Assembly: GCA_009701575.1 (NCBI GenBank)
Contig: WLJX01000008.1
Span: 1-50,399 of the forward strand
Length of the DNA stretch: 50,399 bases
DNA from: Actinomycetota bacterium
GTDB taxonomy: Bacteria; Actinomycetota; Actinomycetes; Nanopelagicales; Nanopelagicaceae
Reading direction: 5' to 3'
Shown here in pieces: positions 1,620 to 33,145 of this stretch (within the stretch, counting starts at the first letter, position 1; each line of letters starts with the position of its first letter). Both the position numbers and the translations under genes were made by a program. The notes beneath the pieces are model-generated. The model did not search any database, had not been told where the DNA came from, and worked only from the letters and a program-made list of their open reading frames with translations.

Positions 1620-1657
1620 TTGCGCCTGTCGGGGGTGGCAGTTATCTTTCGAACATA
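1620..1657 (+). promoter_or_regulatory. Candidate leaderless promoter of the SOS cassette
   Basis: TTGCGC (1620-1625), a 17-base spacer and TATCTT (1643-1648) are followed 8 bases later by the ATG at 1657, which would be at or next to the transcription start. No ribosome binding site lies at a useful distance. The LexA-type palindrome overlaps the end of this promoter and the start codon. Confidence 0.55.
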
Positions 1658-1664
1658 TGTTCGA
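1649..1664. promoter_or_regulatory. LexA/SOS box
   Basis: TCGAACATATGTTCGA is a perfect 16-bp palindrome that fits the actinobacterial and Bacillus SOS box (CGAAC-N4-GTTCG). It sits at the head of the DUF6504-dnaE2-dinB operon and contains the proposed start codon (ATG, 1657-1659). LexA bound here would cover the expected transcription start. Confidence 0.9.
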
Positions 1665-1992: not shown

Positions 1993-4900
1993 ATGAAAAA
2001 TTTTACTCACCTACGTGTTGCAAGTGGCTATTCCTTTAAATATGGAACCGCCCATGCCAGCCAACTTGTAGAGCGCGCAGCCGAGTTCGAAATGTCGGCG
2101 CTCGCACTTACCGATATTGACACGATGGCTGGTGCAATTAGATTTACCAAGAGTTGTGAAGCAAGTGGCATCGCACCAATTCTTGGCATCAATTTAAGTT
2201 TTATCCAGAAGAAATATCGCGTAACTCTTCTTGCTCAAGGCGGAGAACTTTCTTCGCTCTATCGGCTGGTAACTGAAATTAACTCAAACAATAGTGAGAG
2301 CCTATTAACACATTCATTACTCGAACGCTTTAGCCAATATTCTCGTAACTTACTTATCTTGCATGGTCCTGAATCACAATTAGCCCAAGTGATTGCTTTA
2401 CGCAAAAACCATGAAGCGCTCTCGATATTTAACGCAACTCGTGAGCTCTTTGCCGACCAGGCTCTGGAATGCGTTTCGCATTTAATTCGTGGTGATGGGG
2501 CGCTCTCAACTTCATATGCGGCGCGCACACTTAGCTTTGCCCGAGATAACCAAATTCCCGCAATTTTAAGCAATGCGGTACGGATGCTAGATCGCAGCGA
2601 TGGTCCGGTTGCTGATGTTTTAGATGCGGCGCGCAAATTAGTTCCATTAAGTTCTAAGAACGTTAATCGCCAAAATAGTGAGGCTTATTTTAAAGCTAGT
2701 TCTGAGATGTCATATCTAGCGGATGAAATTTCACGTCTTGCTGGTGAGCGAGATGGTAAATATTTATTAAAGACAACTGCCGATTGGGCACAGCGCGCAA
2801 TTCTCTCGCCCCGTAAAGATGTTGGGATTGGTGAGATTCACCTGCCAGATGCCCAATCACTTGGTGCGAAGAACCAGAGCGAACTTGCAGCACAATTGCG
2901 ATTGCGGTGTGAAGCTGGTTTATCACGCAGATATATCGGCGCTAAATCAGTAGTTGCAGCGAGCAGGTTAGAGGAAGAGTTAAGTGCAATCCGCGCTCTT
3001 GGTTATGAATCTTATTTTTTAACGGTTGCAGATATCACCGATATGTCACGCGAGCGAGGAATCCGAGTTGCCGCGCGGGGAAGTGGCGCCGGTTCTTTAA
3101 TCTGTCATGTACTTGGGATTTCTGGCGTCGAGCCAATAACACACGGCTTATTAATGGAGCGCTTCTGTTCACCACTTCGCGGCGAGCTGCCCGATATTGA
3201 TATTGATGTGGAGTCTGCAAGAAGGCTAGAGATTTATGACGCAATCTTTGAGAAGTATGGCCAGAGATGCGCGACGGTATCGATGGTTGAAACCTATAGA
3301 TCGCGCCATGCAATTCGCGATGTGGGTGCCGCACTTGGAATATCTCCGATGGAGATTGATTTAATTGCTAAATCAATGCCCCATATCCGGGCCAGCAATA
3401 TTCCAAAGGCGCTAGCAAATCTGCCTGAGTTAAAGCACTTAAATTTAGATACGCCAATTTTAAAGATGGCGATTGAACTTGCTGGGCGTTTAGATTCGCT
3501 GCCCAGGCATTTATCGATGCACCCATGTGCAATTGTTCTGGCCGATCAAGGGCTAGGCGATTATGCGCCACAACAAATCAATGCGAGCGGTTATCCGATG
3601 CTGCAATTTGATAAGGATGATGTTGAAGCAATCGGGTTGCTGAAGTTGGATGTCCTTGGAGTGCGTATGCAATCTGCGATTTCTTATACGCTCTCTGAGA
3701 TTGAACGCATCGAAGGCACGCCACTTGATATTGATGCAATTGCACTTGATGATAAAAAAACATTTGATTTAATTAAATCAACGCGCACTCTTGGGATATT
3801 CCAAATCGAAAGTCCAGGACAACGTGAACTCGTTGGAAAATTTGCACCTAATACCTTTAACGATTTAATTATTGATATCTCACTATTTCGCCCAGGCCCG
3901 GTAAAGAGCGACATGATCACGCCATTTCTTGCAACTAGACATGGTCTGCGAATTCGGCCGAAAATTCACGAAGATCTAGAAGATATTCTGGGCGAGACTG
4001 AAGGCGTCGTTGTTTTTCACGAACAGGTAATCAGAATCATTTCGACTATGACCGGAATAACCCTGGCAGAAGCCGATGAGAAGCGGCGCCAATTAGGCGA
4101 TATCGCGAATCAAGAAGCGTTCTGTGACTGGTTTTATCCAGTGGCAGTTGCACGTGGTTACACCAATTTAGTCGTGACTGAAGTCTGGGAAATTTTGCGC
4201 GCCTTTGCTTCCTTTGGATTTTGCAAAGCACATGCCGCAGCTTTCGCACTTCCTACCTATCAATCATCTTGGCTTAAGACGCATCACACCGCAGCATTTC
4301 TCGCCGGAGTTCTAACGCACGAACCGGGTATGTATCCCAAGCGAGTAATTCTTGATGAGGCTAGGCAGTGGGGGATCAAACTTGCTCCGATTGATGTCAA
4401 TTTATCTGACGCAACATATCGAGTCGAAAAAACATCTGATGTTGTGCGAGCACCATATCTCGCCCCCAATGTTGCAAGTTCTGGCGAAGTGTTAGAACTT
4501 CCAGATGCTCGTGGCTTTGCAATTCGAATGTCACTCTCTGACATTGATGGCATCGACAGCAAAGAGGTAGTGAACATAATTTCTGGACGCCCATATTTAG
4601 ATTTAGCAGATTTTGTTTACCGCTCTGGTGCAAGTCGCCCCACAACTGAATCGCTTTTAATGGTCGGGGCATTTGATAACTTACATAAGCTTTCTACCTC
4701 AGAGATAAATCGGCGAGATTTACTTCTCCATCTCCAGGATCTCTACCGACTTGCCGGATCAAAGCGCACAGCCGGCCAGAGTCAGATGACCTTCGAGTTA
4801 CAACCGCCTTCATTAGAGCCAAGTGGGCTGCCAGATATAACTGCTAGCGAACAAGTTAAGAGCGAGATTGATATTTTAGGGATGGATATCTCAAGCCACC

Positions 4901-5277
4901 TACTTGAGTTCTATGGCGATTTCTTAAATAAAATCGGTGCGGTACGTTCTTCAGATTTAATTAAGCATCGATCTGGAACATCGGTATTAGTAGCTGGCGT
5001 TAAAATCGCACTTCAAACCCCACCAGTTCGCTCTGGTCGTCGGGTTATGTTCTTAACTATTGATGATGGCTTTGGCTGCAACGACATAACCTTCTTTGAA
5101 GATAAGCAGGCTGACTTTGCCACCGTTCTACGTAACTCTTGGTTGTTTTTAGTACGTGGTGAAATTCGCCGTACCGGTCCTCGAGGAATTTCACTTCTTG
5201 GAACTGGTGCGTGGGAGTTAGCAATTTCCCACGATAAGTGGCGTAATCTCGCAGTTTATGGAGCCAGCGGATTATGA
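1993..5277 (+). CDS. dnaE2: Error-prone DNA polymerase III alpha subunit DnaE2
   Basis: This 1094-residue C-family polymerase has the normal DnaE2 length. The palm motif P-D-I-D-I-D-V (residues 400-406) and L-K-L-D-V-L-G (D553) supply the catalytic aspartates D403, D405 and D553. A helix-hairpin-helix region and a C-terminal OB fold follow. The N-terminal PHP domain has lost metal ligands: the DnaE1 pattern H-L-H-V-H-T-E-Y-S reads H-L-R-V-A-S-G-Y-S here, and T-D-H reads T-D-I, so a metal-dependent nuclease there is unlikely. A Q-M-T-F-E-L near residue 933 may be a weak clamp-binding site. DnaE2 performs damage-induced mutagenic synthesis. It is the second gene of an SOS-box operon and overlaps dinB by ATGA. 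Confidence 0.93.
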   Translation: MKNFTHLRVASGYSFKYGTAHASQLVERAAEFEMSALALTDIDTMAGAIRFTKSCEASGIAPILGINLSFIQKKYRVTLLAQGGELSSLYRLVTEINSNNSESLLTHSLLERFSQYSRNLLILHGPESQLAQVIALRKNHEALSIFNATRELFADQALECVSHLIRGDGALSTSYAARTLSFARDNQIPAILSNAVRMLDRSDGPVADVLDAARKLVPLSSKNVNRQNSEAYFKASSEMSYLADEISRLAGERDGKYLLKTTADWAQRAILSPRKDVGIGEIHLPDAQSLGAKNQSELAAQLRLRCEAGLSRRYIGAKSVVAASRLEEELSAIRALGYESYFLTVADITDMSRERGIRVAARGSGAGSLICHVLGISGVEPITHGLLMERFCSPLRGELPDIDIDVESARRLEIYDAIFEKYGQRCATVSMVETYRSRHAIRDVGAALGISPMEIDLIAKSMPHIRASNIPKALANLPELKHLNLDTPILKMAIELAGRLDSLPRHLSMHPCAIVLADQGLGDYAPQQINASGYPMLQFDKDDVEAIGLLKLDVLGVRMQSAISYTLSEIERIEGTPLDIDAIALDDKKTFDLIKSTRTLGIFQIESPGQRELVGKFAPNTFNDLIIDISLFRPGPVKSDMITPFLATRHGLRIRPKIHEDLEDILGETEGVVVFHEQVIRIISTMTGITLAEADEKRRQLGDIANQEAFCDWFYPVAVARGYTNLVVTEVWEILRAFASFGFCKAHAAAFALPTYQSSWLKTHHTAAFLAGVLTHEPGMYPKRVILDEARQWGIKLAPIDVNLSDATYRVEKTSDVVRAPYLAPNVASSGEVLELPDARGFAIRMSLSDIDGIDSKEVVNIISGRPYLDLADFVYRSGASRPTTESLLMVGAFDNLHKLSTSEINRRDLLLHLQDLYRLAGSKRTAGQSQMTFELQPPSLEPSGLPDITASEQVKSEIDILGMDISSHLLEFYGDFLNKIGAVRSSDLIKHRSGTSVLVAGVKIALQTPPVRSGRRVMFLTIDDGFGCNDITFFEDKQADFATVLRNSWLFLVRGEIRRTGPRGISLLGTGAWELAISHDKWRNLAVYGASGL

Positions 5278-6461
5278 GTGAATCAACAATTCTCCATGTT
5301 GATATGGATGCCTTCTTCGCATCAGTAGAAGAGCGCGATAACCCATCACTAAAAGGTAAAGCAGTAGTCGTTGGTACTGGAATCCGGGGTGTTGTATCGG
5401 CAGCAAATTATGAAGCCCGGAAATTTGGAATTCATGCGGCGATGCCAGTCGGTCGCGCTAAGCGACTTGCACCACATGCCATCTTTGTTCCGCCAAATAT
5501 GTCCCGCTATTCCGAAGTTTCAACTCACATCATGGAAATCTTTAGATCGGTGACTCCACTGGTTGAACCACTTTCGCTAGATGAAGCATTTCTCGATGTA
5601 ACTGGCGCTAAACGCTTACTTGGCGACGGCCGAACAATCGCAAAAGAAATTCGCGCAAAGGTCGAAGCGAGTGAGGGCATTACGTGTTCAGTTGGAATCG
5701 CAACCACAAAGTTCATTGCAAAACTAGCCTCTGGCCGTTGCAAACCAAATGGCATGTTGGAAATTGCTTCAGATCGCGTTCTCGAATTTTTACACCCGCT
5801 TCCAGTAAGTGCTATCTGGGGAGTGGGACCGAAGACAAATGAGGAGTTACAGAAGTTAGGGCTGCGAACTGTCGCCGACATCGCAAATACGCCGCGTCAA
5901 ACTTTAATTCGCGCACTTGGAGAGGCGGCCGGTGCTTCGTTGTATGAATTAGCTTGGGGTCGCGATTATCGAGATGTAATTCCAGAAGAGGTAGATAAAT
6001 CAATTAGCGCCGCGCAAACCTTTGATACCGATATCGAAGATCAAGAAATTATCTTGCGGGAGTTCTTGCGACTTACAGAAAAAGCCACTTACCGAATGCG
6101 TGAGAAAGATCTCAGCGCGCGAACAATTTCAATCAAGGTGCGCTTTGCAGATTTTAAAACTATAACTAGATCAAAGACCGTTTCACTTCCGATTAGCGCT
6201 ACGCATGAAGTCTTTGATGTTGTTAAGGCGTTATTTCTCGCACTGAAAATAGATGGCGCCCGATTGCGTTTAGTTGGGGTAAGCCTTGATGGATTGGAAG
6301 ATGGAATAGATGGAACCGAGCAGTTAATTTTGGGCGAGCGAGAAAATGGTTGGCGCCAAGCAACGGCGGCAATCGATAGGGCGAGCGCAAGATTCGGTGA
6401 AGGTAGCGTTAGACCGGCTCGGTTAATCCCCGAGAGTGATGAATCTGAAGAAAATACCTAA
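5274..6461 (+). CDS. dinB: Y-family DNA polymerase IV (DinB)
   Basis: The 395-residue protein retains the catalytic set of an active Y-family polymerase: D10 in H-V-D-M-D-A-F-F and D103-E104 in S-L-D-E-A-F, with F15 as the likely steric gate. Finger, thumb and little-finger regions are complete. A degenerate clamp motif E-Q-L-I-L-G lies near residue 346, before the actinobacterial A-R-F-G-E-G-S-V-R-P-A-R-L end. ImuB, the usual partner of DnaE2, lacks the catalytic acidic residues; their presence here makes this a true DinB. It starts within the dnaE2 stop (ATGA), so the two polymerases are translationally coupled and share the SOS box upstream. Confidence 0.93.
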   Translation: MSESTILHVDMDAFFASVEERDNPSLKGKAVVVGTGIRGVVSAANYEARKFGIHAAMPVGRAKRLAPHAIFVPPNMSRYSEVSTHIMEIFRSVTPLVEPLSLDEAFLDVTGAKRLLGDGRTIAKEIRAKVEASEGITCSVGIATTKFIAKLASGRCKPNGMLEIASDRVLEFLHPLPVSAIWGVGPKTNEELQKLGLRTVADIANTPRQTLIRALGEAAGASLYELAWGRDYRDVIPEEVDKSISAAQTFDTDIEDQEIILREFLRLTEKATYRMREKDLSARTISIKVRFADFKTITRSKTVSLPISATHEVFDVVKALFLALKIDGARLRLVGVSLDGLEDGIDGTEQLILGERENGWRQATAAIDRASARFGEGSVRPARLIPESDESEENT

Positions 6462-19750: not shown

Positions 19751-20453
19751 GACTAAGCGAACTCTCTGGACTTTGTTAACTGGTCTTCTCATTGCAGCAC
19801 TCGCTTTCGGATTAGGTTGGTCAAAGCTATTGGCTCTTGAAGCCGTAACAATTACTGGAACTAATCAAATTATATTGATTGAGAATCAACTTAAGGCCGC
19901 AGAATCTAAATTGGTAATCGGTCAGCCACTTGCTCGCATAAATCCAAGAACTGAAGAGAATACGGTTACAGATTTAGAGTGGGTTGCTAGTGCAAATCTC
20001 TCAAGAAATTGGTGGACAGGCAGAGTGAGACTGCACGTTACGCCACGAATTCCGGTCGCAGTTTACGCCGATGTAAATGATGCGAATGGTTCTCCCAAAT
20101 ATCTGGCAAAAAATGGCGTTGAATTCTCCTCACCACAAAGCTTTAGCAACCTGGCAAAAATCTCAATTGGCACGAAGTCCAAAGGAGAGCGCAAGGAAAT
20201 TGCGATGTTCATAGCAAATCTCTCTGCTGAGATAGTCGCGGGCATGACACGTCTAGAAATTGCTGGAAATAAAGTGATTCTGATGGAGACAAATTTCAGG
20301 AAGCCATCTCTGACGATCATATGGGGTGCTAGAAATAGCGTGACTGATATCGAGGTGAAAAGCGTTGTTTTAATGGGTTTATTGGCGCTTCCTGAAAACA
20401 AGAAAATTACTGAAATTGATTTGAGTATTGCTGATTCACCTATTGTTAAATGA
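19740..20453 (+). CDS. ftsQ: Cell division protein FtsQ
   Basis: The 237-residue protein has one membrane helix (about residues 9-27), then a POTRA-like domain (V-T-I-T-G-T-N-Q-I onward) and the FtsQ core with N-L-S-R-N-W-W-T-G-R-V-R-L-H-V and R-I-P-V-A-V-Y. FtsQ bridges cytoplasmic and outer division proteins through FtsL. The start is TTG 19740, 11 bases inside murC, with GGAAGAGA six bases upstream; no ATG or GTG gives a complete N-terminal helix. It is the last gene before a promoter-containing gap and ftsZ. Confidence 0.88.
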   Translation: MQSRTKRTLWTLLTGLLIAALAFGLGWSKLLALEAVTITGTNQIILIENQLKAAESKLVIGQPLARINPRTEENTVTDLEWVASANLSRNWWTGRVRLHVTPRIPVAVYADVNDANGSPKYLAKNGVEFSSPQSFSNLAKISIGTKSKGERKEIAMFIANLSAEIVAGMTRLEIAGNKVILMETNFRKPSLTIIWGARNSVTDIEVKSVVLMGLLALPENKKITEIDLSIADSPIVK

Positions 20454-29629: not shown

Positions 29630-32600
29630 ATGTCTGCAGACCAAGGATTCGTCCACTTACACGTCCACACCGAGTATTCGATGCTCGATGGTGCTGCGCG
29701 CGTTGATGAATTAGTAACTGAAGTTGCTAACCAAGGTATGCCTGCGATTGCAATTACCGATCATGGAAATGTTTTTGGTGCCTATGAATTTAATAAGAAA
29801 GCAGTCAAGGCGGGCGTAAAACCAATCATTGGAATTGAAGCTTACGTTGCACCAGAATCAAGATTTGAAAAGAAGCGCGTCAAGTGGGCCGATGGCGGGG
29901 AAGATGATGTTTCAGGTGGTGGCGCTTATACCCACATGACTTTGCTTGCTGAAAATAATCAAGGACTTTCAAATCTTTTCAAATTATCTTCCCTAGCGTC
30001 GCTAGAAGGTTATTACTACAAGCCCAGAATGGATCGAGATCTTCTCTCGAAATATTCAACTGGAATAATTGCAACTACTGGTTGCCCAGGTGGTGAAATT
30101 CAAACGCGCTTGCGTATGGGTGCATTTAAAGAGGCGAAGCAAGCTGCTAGCGAGCTTAGAGATATTTTCGGGGCTGAGAACTTCTATCTTGAAATTATGG
30201 ATCACGGTATTGAAATTGAAACCCGTGTTAAAGCCGATTTATTGAAACTTGGAAAAGAGCTAGGTCTTCCGCTTCTAGCTACAAATGATCTCCACTACAC
30301 ACATCACAAGGATGCAGCATCGCACGAAGCTTTGTTATGTGTGCAATCAGGTTCAACTCTTGCCGACCCAAAGCGTTTTAAATTTGAGAATAACGAATTT
30401 TATTTAAAGAGTGCAAAAGAGATGCGTACGCTCTTCGCAGACATCCCAGAAGCATGCGATAACACCCTTCTTATCGCCGAACGCTGCAATATAACTATGC
30501 GGGAAAATGAAAACTTATTGCCACAATATTCTGTTCCCAATGGAGAAACTGAAGATTCATGGCTTCGCAAGGAGTCAAATAAGGGTTTAGCTTCAAGGCT
30601 AGATGGCAAAGTTGATGTGCAATATCAAGAGCGTTTAGATTATGAATTAGAAGTAATGATTAAGATGGGCTTTCCAGGATACTTCTTGGTGGTCTCTGAT
30701 CTCTGCTCTCATGCAAGGAGCGTTGGAATTCGCGTCGGCCCCGGGCGAGGTTCTGCAGCAGGTTCGCTCGTTTCATATGCGCTCGGTATCACTGCGCTCG
30801 ACCCAATCAAACACGGATTATTGTTTGAGCGCTTCCTAAATCCAGAACGTATCTCCATGCCTGATATCGATTTGGATTTCGATGAACGCAGAAGATCCGA
30901 AATGATTGCTTATGCAACGCAGAAGTATGGTGAAGATCGCGTTGCTCAGATCATTACTTACGGAACGATTAAATCTAAGCAAGCACTTAAAGATTCAACT
31001 CGAGTGCTGGGCTACCCATATGCAATAGGTGAGCGATTAACCAAGGCCTTGCCGCCTTCGGTTATGGGCAAAGATATTTCCCTTGCTGGTGTTTTTGATT
31101 CTAAAAATGATCGTTACGGTGAAGCCGGAGAATTTAGAACACTGTATGAAACTGATCCTGATTCAAAACGTATTGTTGATACTGCGCGCGGGCTTGAAGG
31201 GCTAAAGCGACAGTGGGGAGTGCATGCCGCTGGAGTGATTCTCAGTAAAGAGCCGCTTCTAGATGTAATTCCTATCCATAGACGAGAAGCGGATGGCGCA
31301 ATCATTACCCAGTTCGATATGGGAGCTTGCGAATCTATCGGGCTTTTGAAGATGGACTTTCTTGGACTTCGAAATCTCTCTGTGTTAGATGATTGTTTGC
31401 TAAACATTAAGGCCAATAAGAATATTGATTTGGATCTTTCAACACTTACTTTGGATGATTTAAAGACTTATCAATTACTTGGTCGTGGTGAAACTCTTGG
31501 CGTGTTTCAACTCGACGGTGGCCCAATGCGGGCGCTACTTCGCCAAATGAATCCAGATTCATTTGAAGATATTTCAGCTGTTATCGCTTTATATCGTCCA
31601 GGTCCAATGGGTGTTAACGCGCATAATGATTATGCGGATCGCAAAAATAAGCGACAAGAAGTTGTCCCGATTCATCCCGAACTTACACAGGCGCTGGCTG
31701 AAATTTTGGGGGACACCTACGGGCTAATTGTTTATCAAGAACAGGTGATGGCGATTGCGCAGAAAGTTGCCGGCTTCAGTTTGGGCCGCGCAGATCTTCT
31801 GCGAAAAGCGATGGGTAAGAAGAATAAAGACATCCTGGATAAGGAATATGTAAATTTTGAAAAGGGAATGACAGATAACGGTTTCTCTAAATCCGCAATT
31901 GATAAATTGTGGGAGACTTTAATTCCATTCTCTGACTATGCGTTTAACCGGGCCCACAGCGCAGGCTATGGAATGGTTTCTTATTGGACTGCTTATCTAA
32001 AAGCGAATTATCCGACGGAATATATGGCAGCGCTATTAACAAGCGTTCGCGATGATAAAGATAAGAGTGCGCTCTATTTAAATGAATGCCGTCGGATGGG
32101 GATTAAGGTCCTTCCGCCAGATGTAAATGAATCACAATCTGACTACACCCCTCTAGGTACTGACATTAGATTTGGATTAACAGCTATTCGAAATGTGGGT
32201 GAGAACGTTGTTGCTTCAATCGTCGCAAATCGCGCAGTTGCTGGACGTTATGAGTCTTTTGGTGATTTCTTAACCAAAGTTGATGGCAATGTTTGTAATA
32301 AGAAGACCATCGAATCCTTGATTAAGGGTGGCGCTTTTGATTCTCTTAACCATCCGCGCAAGGGCTTAACCCTGATCTACTTGGAAGCAATTGATTCAGT
32401 TATGGAAGCGAAACGTGCTGAATCGATCGGTCAATTCGATTTGTTTGGTGGCTATCCAGGATCTGGAGAAACCGCTGTGACTGGTGTCGAAATTGATATC
32501 CCAAATCAAGAGTGGGATAAAGCGTTACTACTTAGTTATGAACGCGAAATGCTGGGGCTTTATGTTTCCGATCATCCGCTGCTAGGTGTTGAACACTTAC

Positions 32601-33145
32601 TGCGTTCGGCCACAGATATGCCAATCAGCCAGATTAATGATGACTCGATTGGCCACGAACAAATTGTCACCATTGGCGGATTAATTACTCAGATTCAGCG
32701 CAAGGTTTCGAGACGTGGTGACTCTTGGGCAATTGTTACAGTTGAAGATCTTGAAGGTGCTATAGATGTTATGTTCTTCGCAAACTCTTACACCCAGCAC
32801 TCAATGAACTTGATGGAAGATCGAATTGTAATTATCCGAGGACGTATTGATAAACGTGAAGAGCAAGTGAAACTTATGGCCTTGGATCTATCGACTCCAG
32901 ATATCTCACTTGCACCATCTGGTCCACTTATAATTTCTATGGATACGGTGCGCTGCACACCACCAGTTGTCGATCGGATTAAAGAGATCTTGCGTTCCCA
33001 CCCCGGAAAGCGAGAAGTTCATTTGAAACTTGATGATGGCCGAAAGAGCTTAGTTATGAAAATTGGCGATGATTTAAGAGTCACTGCCTCACCAAGTTTG
33101 AGCGCTGACCTCAAAGCAATACTCGGCCCCGACTGTCTGGTTTAG
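29630..33145 (+). CDS. dnaE1: Replicative DNA polymerase III alpha subunit DnaE1
   Basis: This 1171-residue protein is the main replicase. The N-terminal PHP domain keeps its metal ligands (H9-L-H11-V-H13-T-E-Y-S and T-D-H-G-N), consistent with the intrinsic proofreading nuclease described for actinobacterial DnaE1. Palm motifs P411-D-I-D-L-D-F and L-K-M-D576-F-L-G give the catalytic aspartates D414, D416 and D576. Q935-F-D-L-F is a textbook clamp-binding motif, and an OB domain follows (about 1000-1090). The contrast with the degenerate PHP of DnaE2 in the same window is clear. No ribosome binding site is seen; TAATCT lies 7 bases before the ATG. Confidence 0.96.
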   Translation: MSADQGFVHLHVHTEYSMLDGAARVDELVTEVANQGMPAIAITDHGNVFGAYEFNKKAVKAGVKPIIGIEAYVAPESRFEKKRVKWADGGEDDVSGGGAYTHMTLLAENNQGLSNLFKLSSLASLEGYYYKPRMDRDLLSKYSTGIIATTGCPGGEIQTRLRMGAFKEAKQAASELRDIFGAENFYLEIMDHGIEIETRVKADLLKLGKELGLPLLATNDLHYTHHKDAASHEALLCVQSGSTLADPKRFKFENNEFYLKSAKEMRTLFADIPEACDNTLLIAERCNITMRENENLLPQYSVPNGETEDSWLRKESNKGLASRLDGKVDVQYQERLDYELEVMIKMGFPGYFLVVSDLCSHARSVGIRVGPGRGSAAGSLVSYALGITALDPIKHGLLFERFLNPERISMPDIDLDFDERRRSEMIAYATQKYGEDRVAQIITYGTIKSKQALKDSTRVLGYPYAIGERLTKALPPSVMGKDISLAGVFDSKNDRYGEAGEFRTLYETDPDSKRIVDTARGLEGLKRQWGVHAAGVILSKEPLLDVIPIHRREADGAIITQFDMGACESIGLLKMDFLGLRNLSVLDDCLLNIKANKNIDLDLSTLTLDDLKTYQLLGRGETLGVFQLDGGPMRALLRQMNPDSFEDISAVIALYRPGPMGVNAHNDYADRKNKRQEVVPIHPELTQALAEILGDTYGLIVYQEQVMAIAQKVAGFSLGRADLLRKAMGKKNKDILDKEYVNFEKGMTDNGFSKSAIDKLWETLIPFSDYAFNRAHSAGYGMVSYWTAYLKANYPTEYMAALLTSVRDDKDKSALYLNECRRMGIKVLPPDVNESQSDYTPLGTDIRFGLTAIRNVGENVVASIVANRAVAGRYESFGDFLTKVDGNVCNKKTIESLIKGGAFDSLNHPRKGLTLIYLEAIDSVMEAKRAESIGQFDLFGGYPGSGETAVTGVEIDIPNQEWDKALLLSYEREMLGLYVSDHPLLGVEHLLRSATDMPISQINDDSIGHEQIVTIGGLITQIQRKVSRRGDSWAIVTVEDLEGAIDVMFFANSYTQHSMNLMEDRIVIIRGRIDKREEQVKLMALDLSTPDISLAPSGPLIISMDTVRCTPPVVDRIKEILRSHPGKREVHLKLDDGRKSLVMKIGDDLRVTASPSLSADLKAILGPDCLV

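Follow-up and report, generated by a model that had tools for sequence, protein, structure and literature searches.

In the window (the 50,399-nucleotide stretch analysed here, taken from one contig of a 1.17 Mb genome assembly that is 79% complete), an SOS mutasome operon encoding an ImuB-C-type protein, a DnaE2-type polymerase and a Y-family polymerase appears to be controlled from some 45 bases that hold its promoter and operator as well as the sites where transcription and translation begin, a reading in which, from sequence comparison, we have good confidence. On the forward strand the layout from 1620 to 1664 is TTGCGC-CTGTCGGGGGTGGCAGT-TATCTT-TCGAACATATGTTCGA, with a -35-like hexamer at 1620–1625, a -10 element at 1643–1648 and, abutting the latter, a LexA operator (SOS box) at 1649–1664. 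The parts are already known; the packing of operator, initiator and start codon is unusual and is a new arrangement conserved over a lineage.

The operator TCGAACATATGTTCGA is a perfect palindrome of the form TCGAAC-N4-GTTCGA, which extends to 18 bases at 1648–1665. The original prediction of a perfect actinobacterial-type SOS box containing the ATG at 1657 was right in both sequence and coordinates. The perfect pattern occurs once in the window, and this is also its single copy in the 1.17 Mb genome, where base composition predicts ~0.07 perfect boxes by chance; the reversed pattern, used as a control, gave no site in the genome and a single site among 27 congeneric genomes taken together. 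The whole-genome scan with the 16-mer pattern that had been suggested as a check returned no second perfect box and four one-mismatch boxes elsewhere, two of which flank lexA. The one-mismatch boxes on contigs C3 and C28 fall within ORFs, the former ORF resembling an exonuclease VII large subunit and the latter being short; both boxes were rejected as SOS targets, as probably chance occurrences.

The genome does contain a lexA gene, on which the prediction depended. It lies on another contig, carries two near-perfect boxes of its own upstream and encodes a LexA that has both a DNA-binding and an S24 peptidase domain; the box in the DUF6504 operon promoter is of the same type. Across the genus this type recurs 5' of recA (TCGAACAnnTGTTCGG, in 15/15 relative loci), of the DUF6504–dnaE2 operon and, as a pair of boxes, of lexA, and the LexA consensus in the lineage is TCGAACAnnTGTTCGA. 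recA itself was not found in this 79%-complete assembly; since all 21 of the high-quality relatives have it, its absence here probably reflects incompleteness.

For comparison we used 53 non-redundant operon loci, namely the window and 52 relatives, mostly of Nanopelagicales type (the relatives include records named Nanopelagicales, Nanopelagicaceae and Planktophila). The DnaE2 of the window is 96–97% identical to that of two actinobacterial metagenome-assembled genomes. A LexA box stands 5' of the same operon in all 53 loci, and the arrangement of a box with a start codon beside a promoter is maintained over dozens of species; the relatives are not independent, only two layout changes being needed on the DnaE2 tree. 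One 99%-complete congener (G001) is without the box, which is explained by the 5' truncation of its dnaE2 copy, where the contig apparently breaks off.

An in-frame ATG within a LexA box is no proof of a start by itself, because an operator of the form CAnnTG automatically places NTG at box positions 9–11. Three further features do not follow from the motif: an ATG rather than another NTG, its being in frame, and a promoter right beside it. By sequence comparison all three are conserved. The in-box ATG (1657–1659 in the window) opens the full frame of the DUF6504 gene (1657–1986, 109 aa, Pfam PF20114) in 41 of the 53 loci, and in 30 of these 41 there is no in-frame ATG, GTG or TTG between the box and the upstream stop. 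Ten other relatives have CTG in the box centre, and that frame soon meets a stop. In the DnaE2 tree these ten group as a single clade (support 100), with the DUF6504 start 32–47 bases 3' of the box and, in nine of the ten, a 4–5 base Shine–Dalgarno match. The deep-branching locus L169 has an in-box ATG followed by an immediate stop, and a Shine–Dalgarno start just 3' of the box. Before the in-box start no Shine–Dalgarno match of at least 3 bases was found in 30 of the 41 loci, the other 11 having a 3-base match only, and in the window no clear Shine–Dalgarno sequence was found 5' of 1594 or 1657, nor inside the predicted transcript. The patterns of the CTG clade, L169 and L165 thus suggest that an in-box start and an absent ribosome site go together, as seen over few independent switches. 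In L165 (JANXZW010000063.1, about 2898–3000) an internal deletion reduces DUF6504 to 28 codons while sparing the in-box ATG and promoter, which would leave a short leaderless reading frame before dnaE2 or may be an assembly error.

The 41-locus in-box pattern and the CTG sister clade lead us to replace GTG 1594 by ATG 1657 as the start, an assignment resting on comparison across loci and not on the box itself. The N-terminal residues MFE occur in every protein started in the box and in none of the leadered proteins, and the linker that follows them is not conserved, varying from 1 to about 40 residues; the constraint thus seems to come from the DNA operator and not from the protein.

Two other readings of the start were weighed. 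GTG 1594 opens a 130-aa frame in the window, as would suit a leadered mRNA made from some other upstream promoter and translated from that GTG or internally at the in-box ATG. This we find scarcely credible, since GTG 1594 is confined to the closest, 97%-identical relative (L042/L119), in most relatives the frame has no start codon further upstream, the stretch 1594–1656 overlaps the conserved promoter, and neither start has a clear Shine–Dalgarno sequence before it. As a start codon GTG 1594 is ruled out by comparison, and the earlier proposal to move the start of the first gene from 1594 to 1657 is borne out. Translation could instead begin at the internal ATG 1699, which is in frame just 5' of the conserved domain, the in-box ATG being fortuitous as seems to be so at the proximal lexA box, where an in-box ATG is present without being needed. 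However, among the loci examined ATG 1699 is common only to the nearest relative L042, it has no clear Shine–Dalgarno sequence, most relatives are without any other start between box and domain, and loss of the in-box ATG coincides with a downstream Shine–Dalgarno start in relatives, so that a start at 1699 is improbable. In the proximal lexA box (L005 and 18 orthologous loci) the in-frame triplet, ATG or TTG, is probably not used as a start; we rejected it as a second example of an in-box start codon, the frame being interrupted in some relatives and lexA having a TANNNT-N6-ATG start.

This TANNNT-N6-ATG spacing was found at lexA in 19/19 loci of the lineage, whose lexA looks leaderless; M. 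tuberculosis lexA has been shown to be leaderless by experiment (PMC2897130). From the lexA spacing, the transcription start of the operon is likely to be A1655, 6 bases after the -10 element and two bases 5' of ATG 1657. It has C at -1 and T at +2, as in the mycobacterial initiator preference (PMC4633059), and the -10 to ATG spacing of 8–9 bases is slightly long for an ATG at +1. In the definition of Cortes et al. (PMC3898074), leaderless transcripts include those with leaders as long as 5 bases. With A1655 as the most likely start, the operon originally described as leaderless would keep that name in this broad sense only (a leader of 0–5 bases); it does lack a Shine–Dalgarno sequence.

The predicted -35/-10 pair, with a 17-base spacer between TTGCGC and TATCTT and a gap of 8 bases before the ATG, is correctly placed, and the promoter also holds a PafBC-type (RecA-independent) motif at 1626–1648. 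It consists of cTGTCGGGG (1626–1634), an 8-base spacer and TATCTT (1643–1648), and fits the published mycobacterial consensus tTGTCRgtg-8-TannnT (PMC5656591). The TGTCRG core is perfect at fixed spacing in 35/53 loci and matches at 5 of 6 bases in 16 more, with TTGC of the -35-like hexamer conserved alongside (TTG at the same spacing in most of the 53 loci). Scanned genus-wide, this short motif has 130 matches where the reversed control has 68, so that the motif is convincing only by its positional conservation; as proof of a regulon, such a scan was set aside as too weak. The genome encodes pafB and pafC as two adjacent WYL genes, with tatA and a trmI-like gene as neighbours; an HTH_PafC domain is present in PafC, and PafB matches solved PafBC chains in the PDB (E 4e-34). 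Because the motif stands at fixed spacing and pafB and pafC are present, the promoter is probably under PafBC activation as well as LexA repression. The LexA box on which the idea of a switch made by a single protein footprint was built is there, but LexA repression is probably half of the control.

A plain LexA-repressed sigma70-type promoter, in which TTGCGC and TATCTT are a normal weak -35/-10 pair, TGTCRG is incidental and PafBC has no part, deserves some weight, although we consider it unlikely. It would account for TTG(C) being conserved 17 bases from the -10 element. Also in its favour, a TTGAC-type -35 element is used where other families in the class have DUF6504 operons, and PMC8151990 gives imuA', imuB and dnaE2, the mutasome genes of M. 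tuberculosis, as RecA-dependent. Against such a plain promoter, the GTC of the PafBC element hardly varies, at its set distance from the -10 element, while its neighbours in the spacer do, pafBC is in the genome, and the same composite order (TTGC, TGTCRG, TANNNT, SOS box) recurs at the promoter of a LysM gene divergent from lexA in 14/14 loci. This LysM gene, with the composite at 1772–1845 of locus L005 and in orthologous loci, resembles M. tuberculosis rv2719c; PMC8151990 reports PafBC to act on the rv2719c operon side and not on lexA.

Behind the promoter, the operon is as predicted in having two polymerases, DnaE-type and DinB-like, after the DUF6504 gene. The first (1993–5277, 1094 aa) must be an accessory copy, because the replicative DnaE1 is a separate gene at 29645–32854 of the same window; we infer its DnaE2 type from its being a second DnaE beside a clear DnaE1. 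The second (5274–6461, 395 aa) is a DinB-like Y-family polymerase, whose start overlaps the dnaE2 stop (ATGA) and which looks active from its intact acidic motifs DMDAFF and SLDEA. A search of the operon for ImuA' and a catalytically dead ImuB found neither, the first gene being DUF6504 and the Y-family motifs intact. On a Deinococcus plasmid (CP058535.1), LexA, a Y-family polymerase, an 80-aa protein and DnaE2 are encoded in a row, and the 80-aa protein (2510–2752 of locus L188) matches PF20114, which links the Pfam family to ImuB-C: an 80-residue protein at the corresponding position in D. deserti is named ImuB-C in PMC8072749. By family and by position relative to Deinococcus, the DUF6504 protein is therefore assigned as a standalone ImuB-C-type protein. 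Its fold model (pLDDT 64) gave no significant PDB match and for both reasons was not used as evidence; PMC12926913 likewise reports no close PDB relative for ImuB-C.

Since the Y-family protein keeps both acidic motifs, the operon fits the DnaE2B–PolY–[ImuB-C]–RecA module rather than ImuA–ImuB–DnaE2. The former is described for actinobacteria, in PMC12926913, as DnaE2B, an active PolY, a standalone ImuB-C and RecA, and the operon likewise has a standalone ImuB-C (DUF6504), DnaE2 and an active-looking Y-family polymerase. Its gene order is ImuB-C, DnaE2, PolY, with lexA elsewhere, unlike the order lexA–imuY–imuB-C–dnaE2 given for Deinococcus in PMC8072749, and the present lineage is not named in the excerpted module descriptions of these two papers. 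By eye, the tail ARFGEGSVRP of the Y-family protein is like RQFGKGSVMK of RecA; a scan of the protein for the RecA-NT motif that such a PolY tail would carry gave no significant result, and this tail was not its best site.

We propose the following working, in which occupancy by LexA and PafBC, the exact transcription start, leaderless translation and induction by damage are all read from sequence. In undamaged cells a LexA dimer on 1649–1664 would cover both the start codon and the expected transcription start and abut the -10 element, and thereby keep the operon off. Upon DNA damage, RecA on ssDNA would trigger self-cleavage of LexA and free the box; separately, PafBC activated by ssDNA would let RNA polymerase take TGTCRG as an upstream contact. 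Transcription from about A1655 would give an mRNA leader of 0–2 bases, and translation would begin at ATG 1657 without a Shine–Dalgarno sequence, the right half of the operator also coding the first residues Met-Phe-Glu. The fuller model puts two inputs on the same 45 bases, the ssDNA-activated activator PafBC and the repressor LexA that is removed through RecA and ssDNA, with an operator that serves as initiator and start codon and fixes the first residues, and has the lineage swapping this layout and the leadered one by changes at the central operator positions together with gain or loss of a ribosome site; on this model as a whole our opinion is evenly balanced. If it is true, error-prone repair in a widespread, genome-reduced freshwater lineage would be wired to both damage pathways via one minimal promoter, unlike in M. 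tuberculosis with its RecA-dependent mutasome genes, and in many metagenome-assembled genomes the DUF6504 start could be mended by a simple rule. It would also show how a CAnnTG operator may be recruited as a start codon, by which annotation, leaderless translation and repression would become one constraint.

With the LexA regulons of M. tuberculosis and Streptomyces the lineage shares the box TCGAAC-N4-GTTCGA, the targets lexA, recA and dnaE2–dinP/mutasome genes, and a leaderless lexA (PMC9380542, PMC2897130). What differs is that the mutasome operon here has its start codon within the operator, an arrangement conserved across the lineage; the dnaE2 box of S. venezuelae begins at -68 (PMC9380542, PMC2897130). 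In mycobacterial leaderless transcripts (PMC3898074, PMC4633059) the start codon likewise lies within a few bases of the transcription start and lacks a Shine–Dalgarno sequence, as predicted here, but in our case a repressor operator is predicted to supply both initiator and start codon.

Motif, spacing and pafBC genes are shared with known PafBC promoters (RecA-NDp; PMC5656591, PMC11804915), and recA, uvrA and uvrC are known to have both PafBC and LexA motifs (PMC8223512). At mycobacterial recA, the PafBC motif and the LexA box form two promoters (PMC5656591), whereas here there is one promoter, and it stands before the mutasome operon. The recA of relatives has the two-promoter layout of mycobacteria, the SOS box being distal and GTCRGTG-8-TACCTT proximal in 15/15 loci (L088–L108); roughly 100 bases between the two elements are strongly conserved and might be structured.

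Several minor observations were made alongside. A PafBC-type motif TGTCAGTGG...TTATCAT recurs across the genus, and in this genome (L186, contig C23 of G000, 56643–56664) lies about 220 bases 5' of an NlpC/P60-like gene. Another PafBC-type motif (L183, contig C2 of G000, 20262–20283) precedes a DNA cytosine methyltransferase-like gene, about 20 bases from its start. Finally, the public records behind loci L120, L157, L163, L143 and L162 are titled Bifidobacterium breve or Clavibacter and carry the operon of this lineage; they cluster with Nanopelagicaceae in the DnaE2 tree, and their labels are probably wrong.
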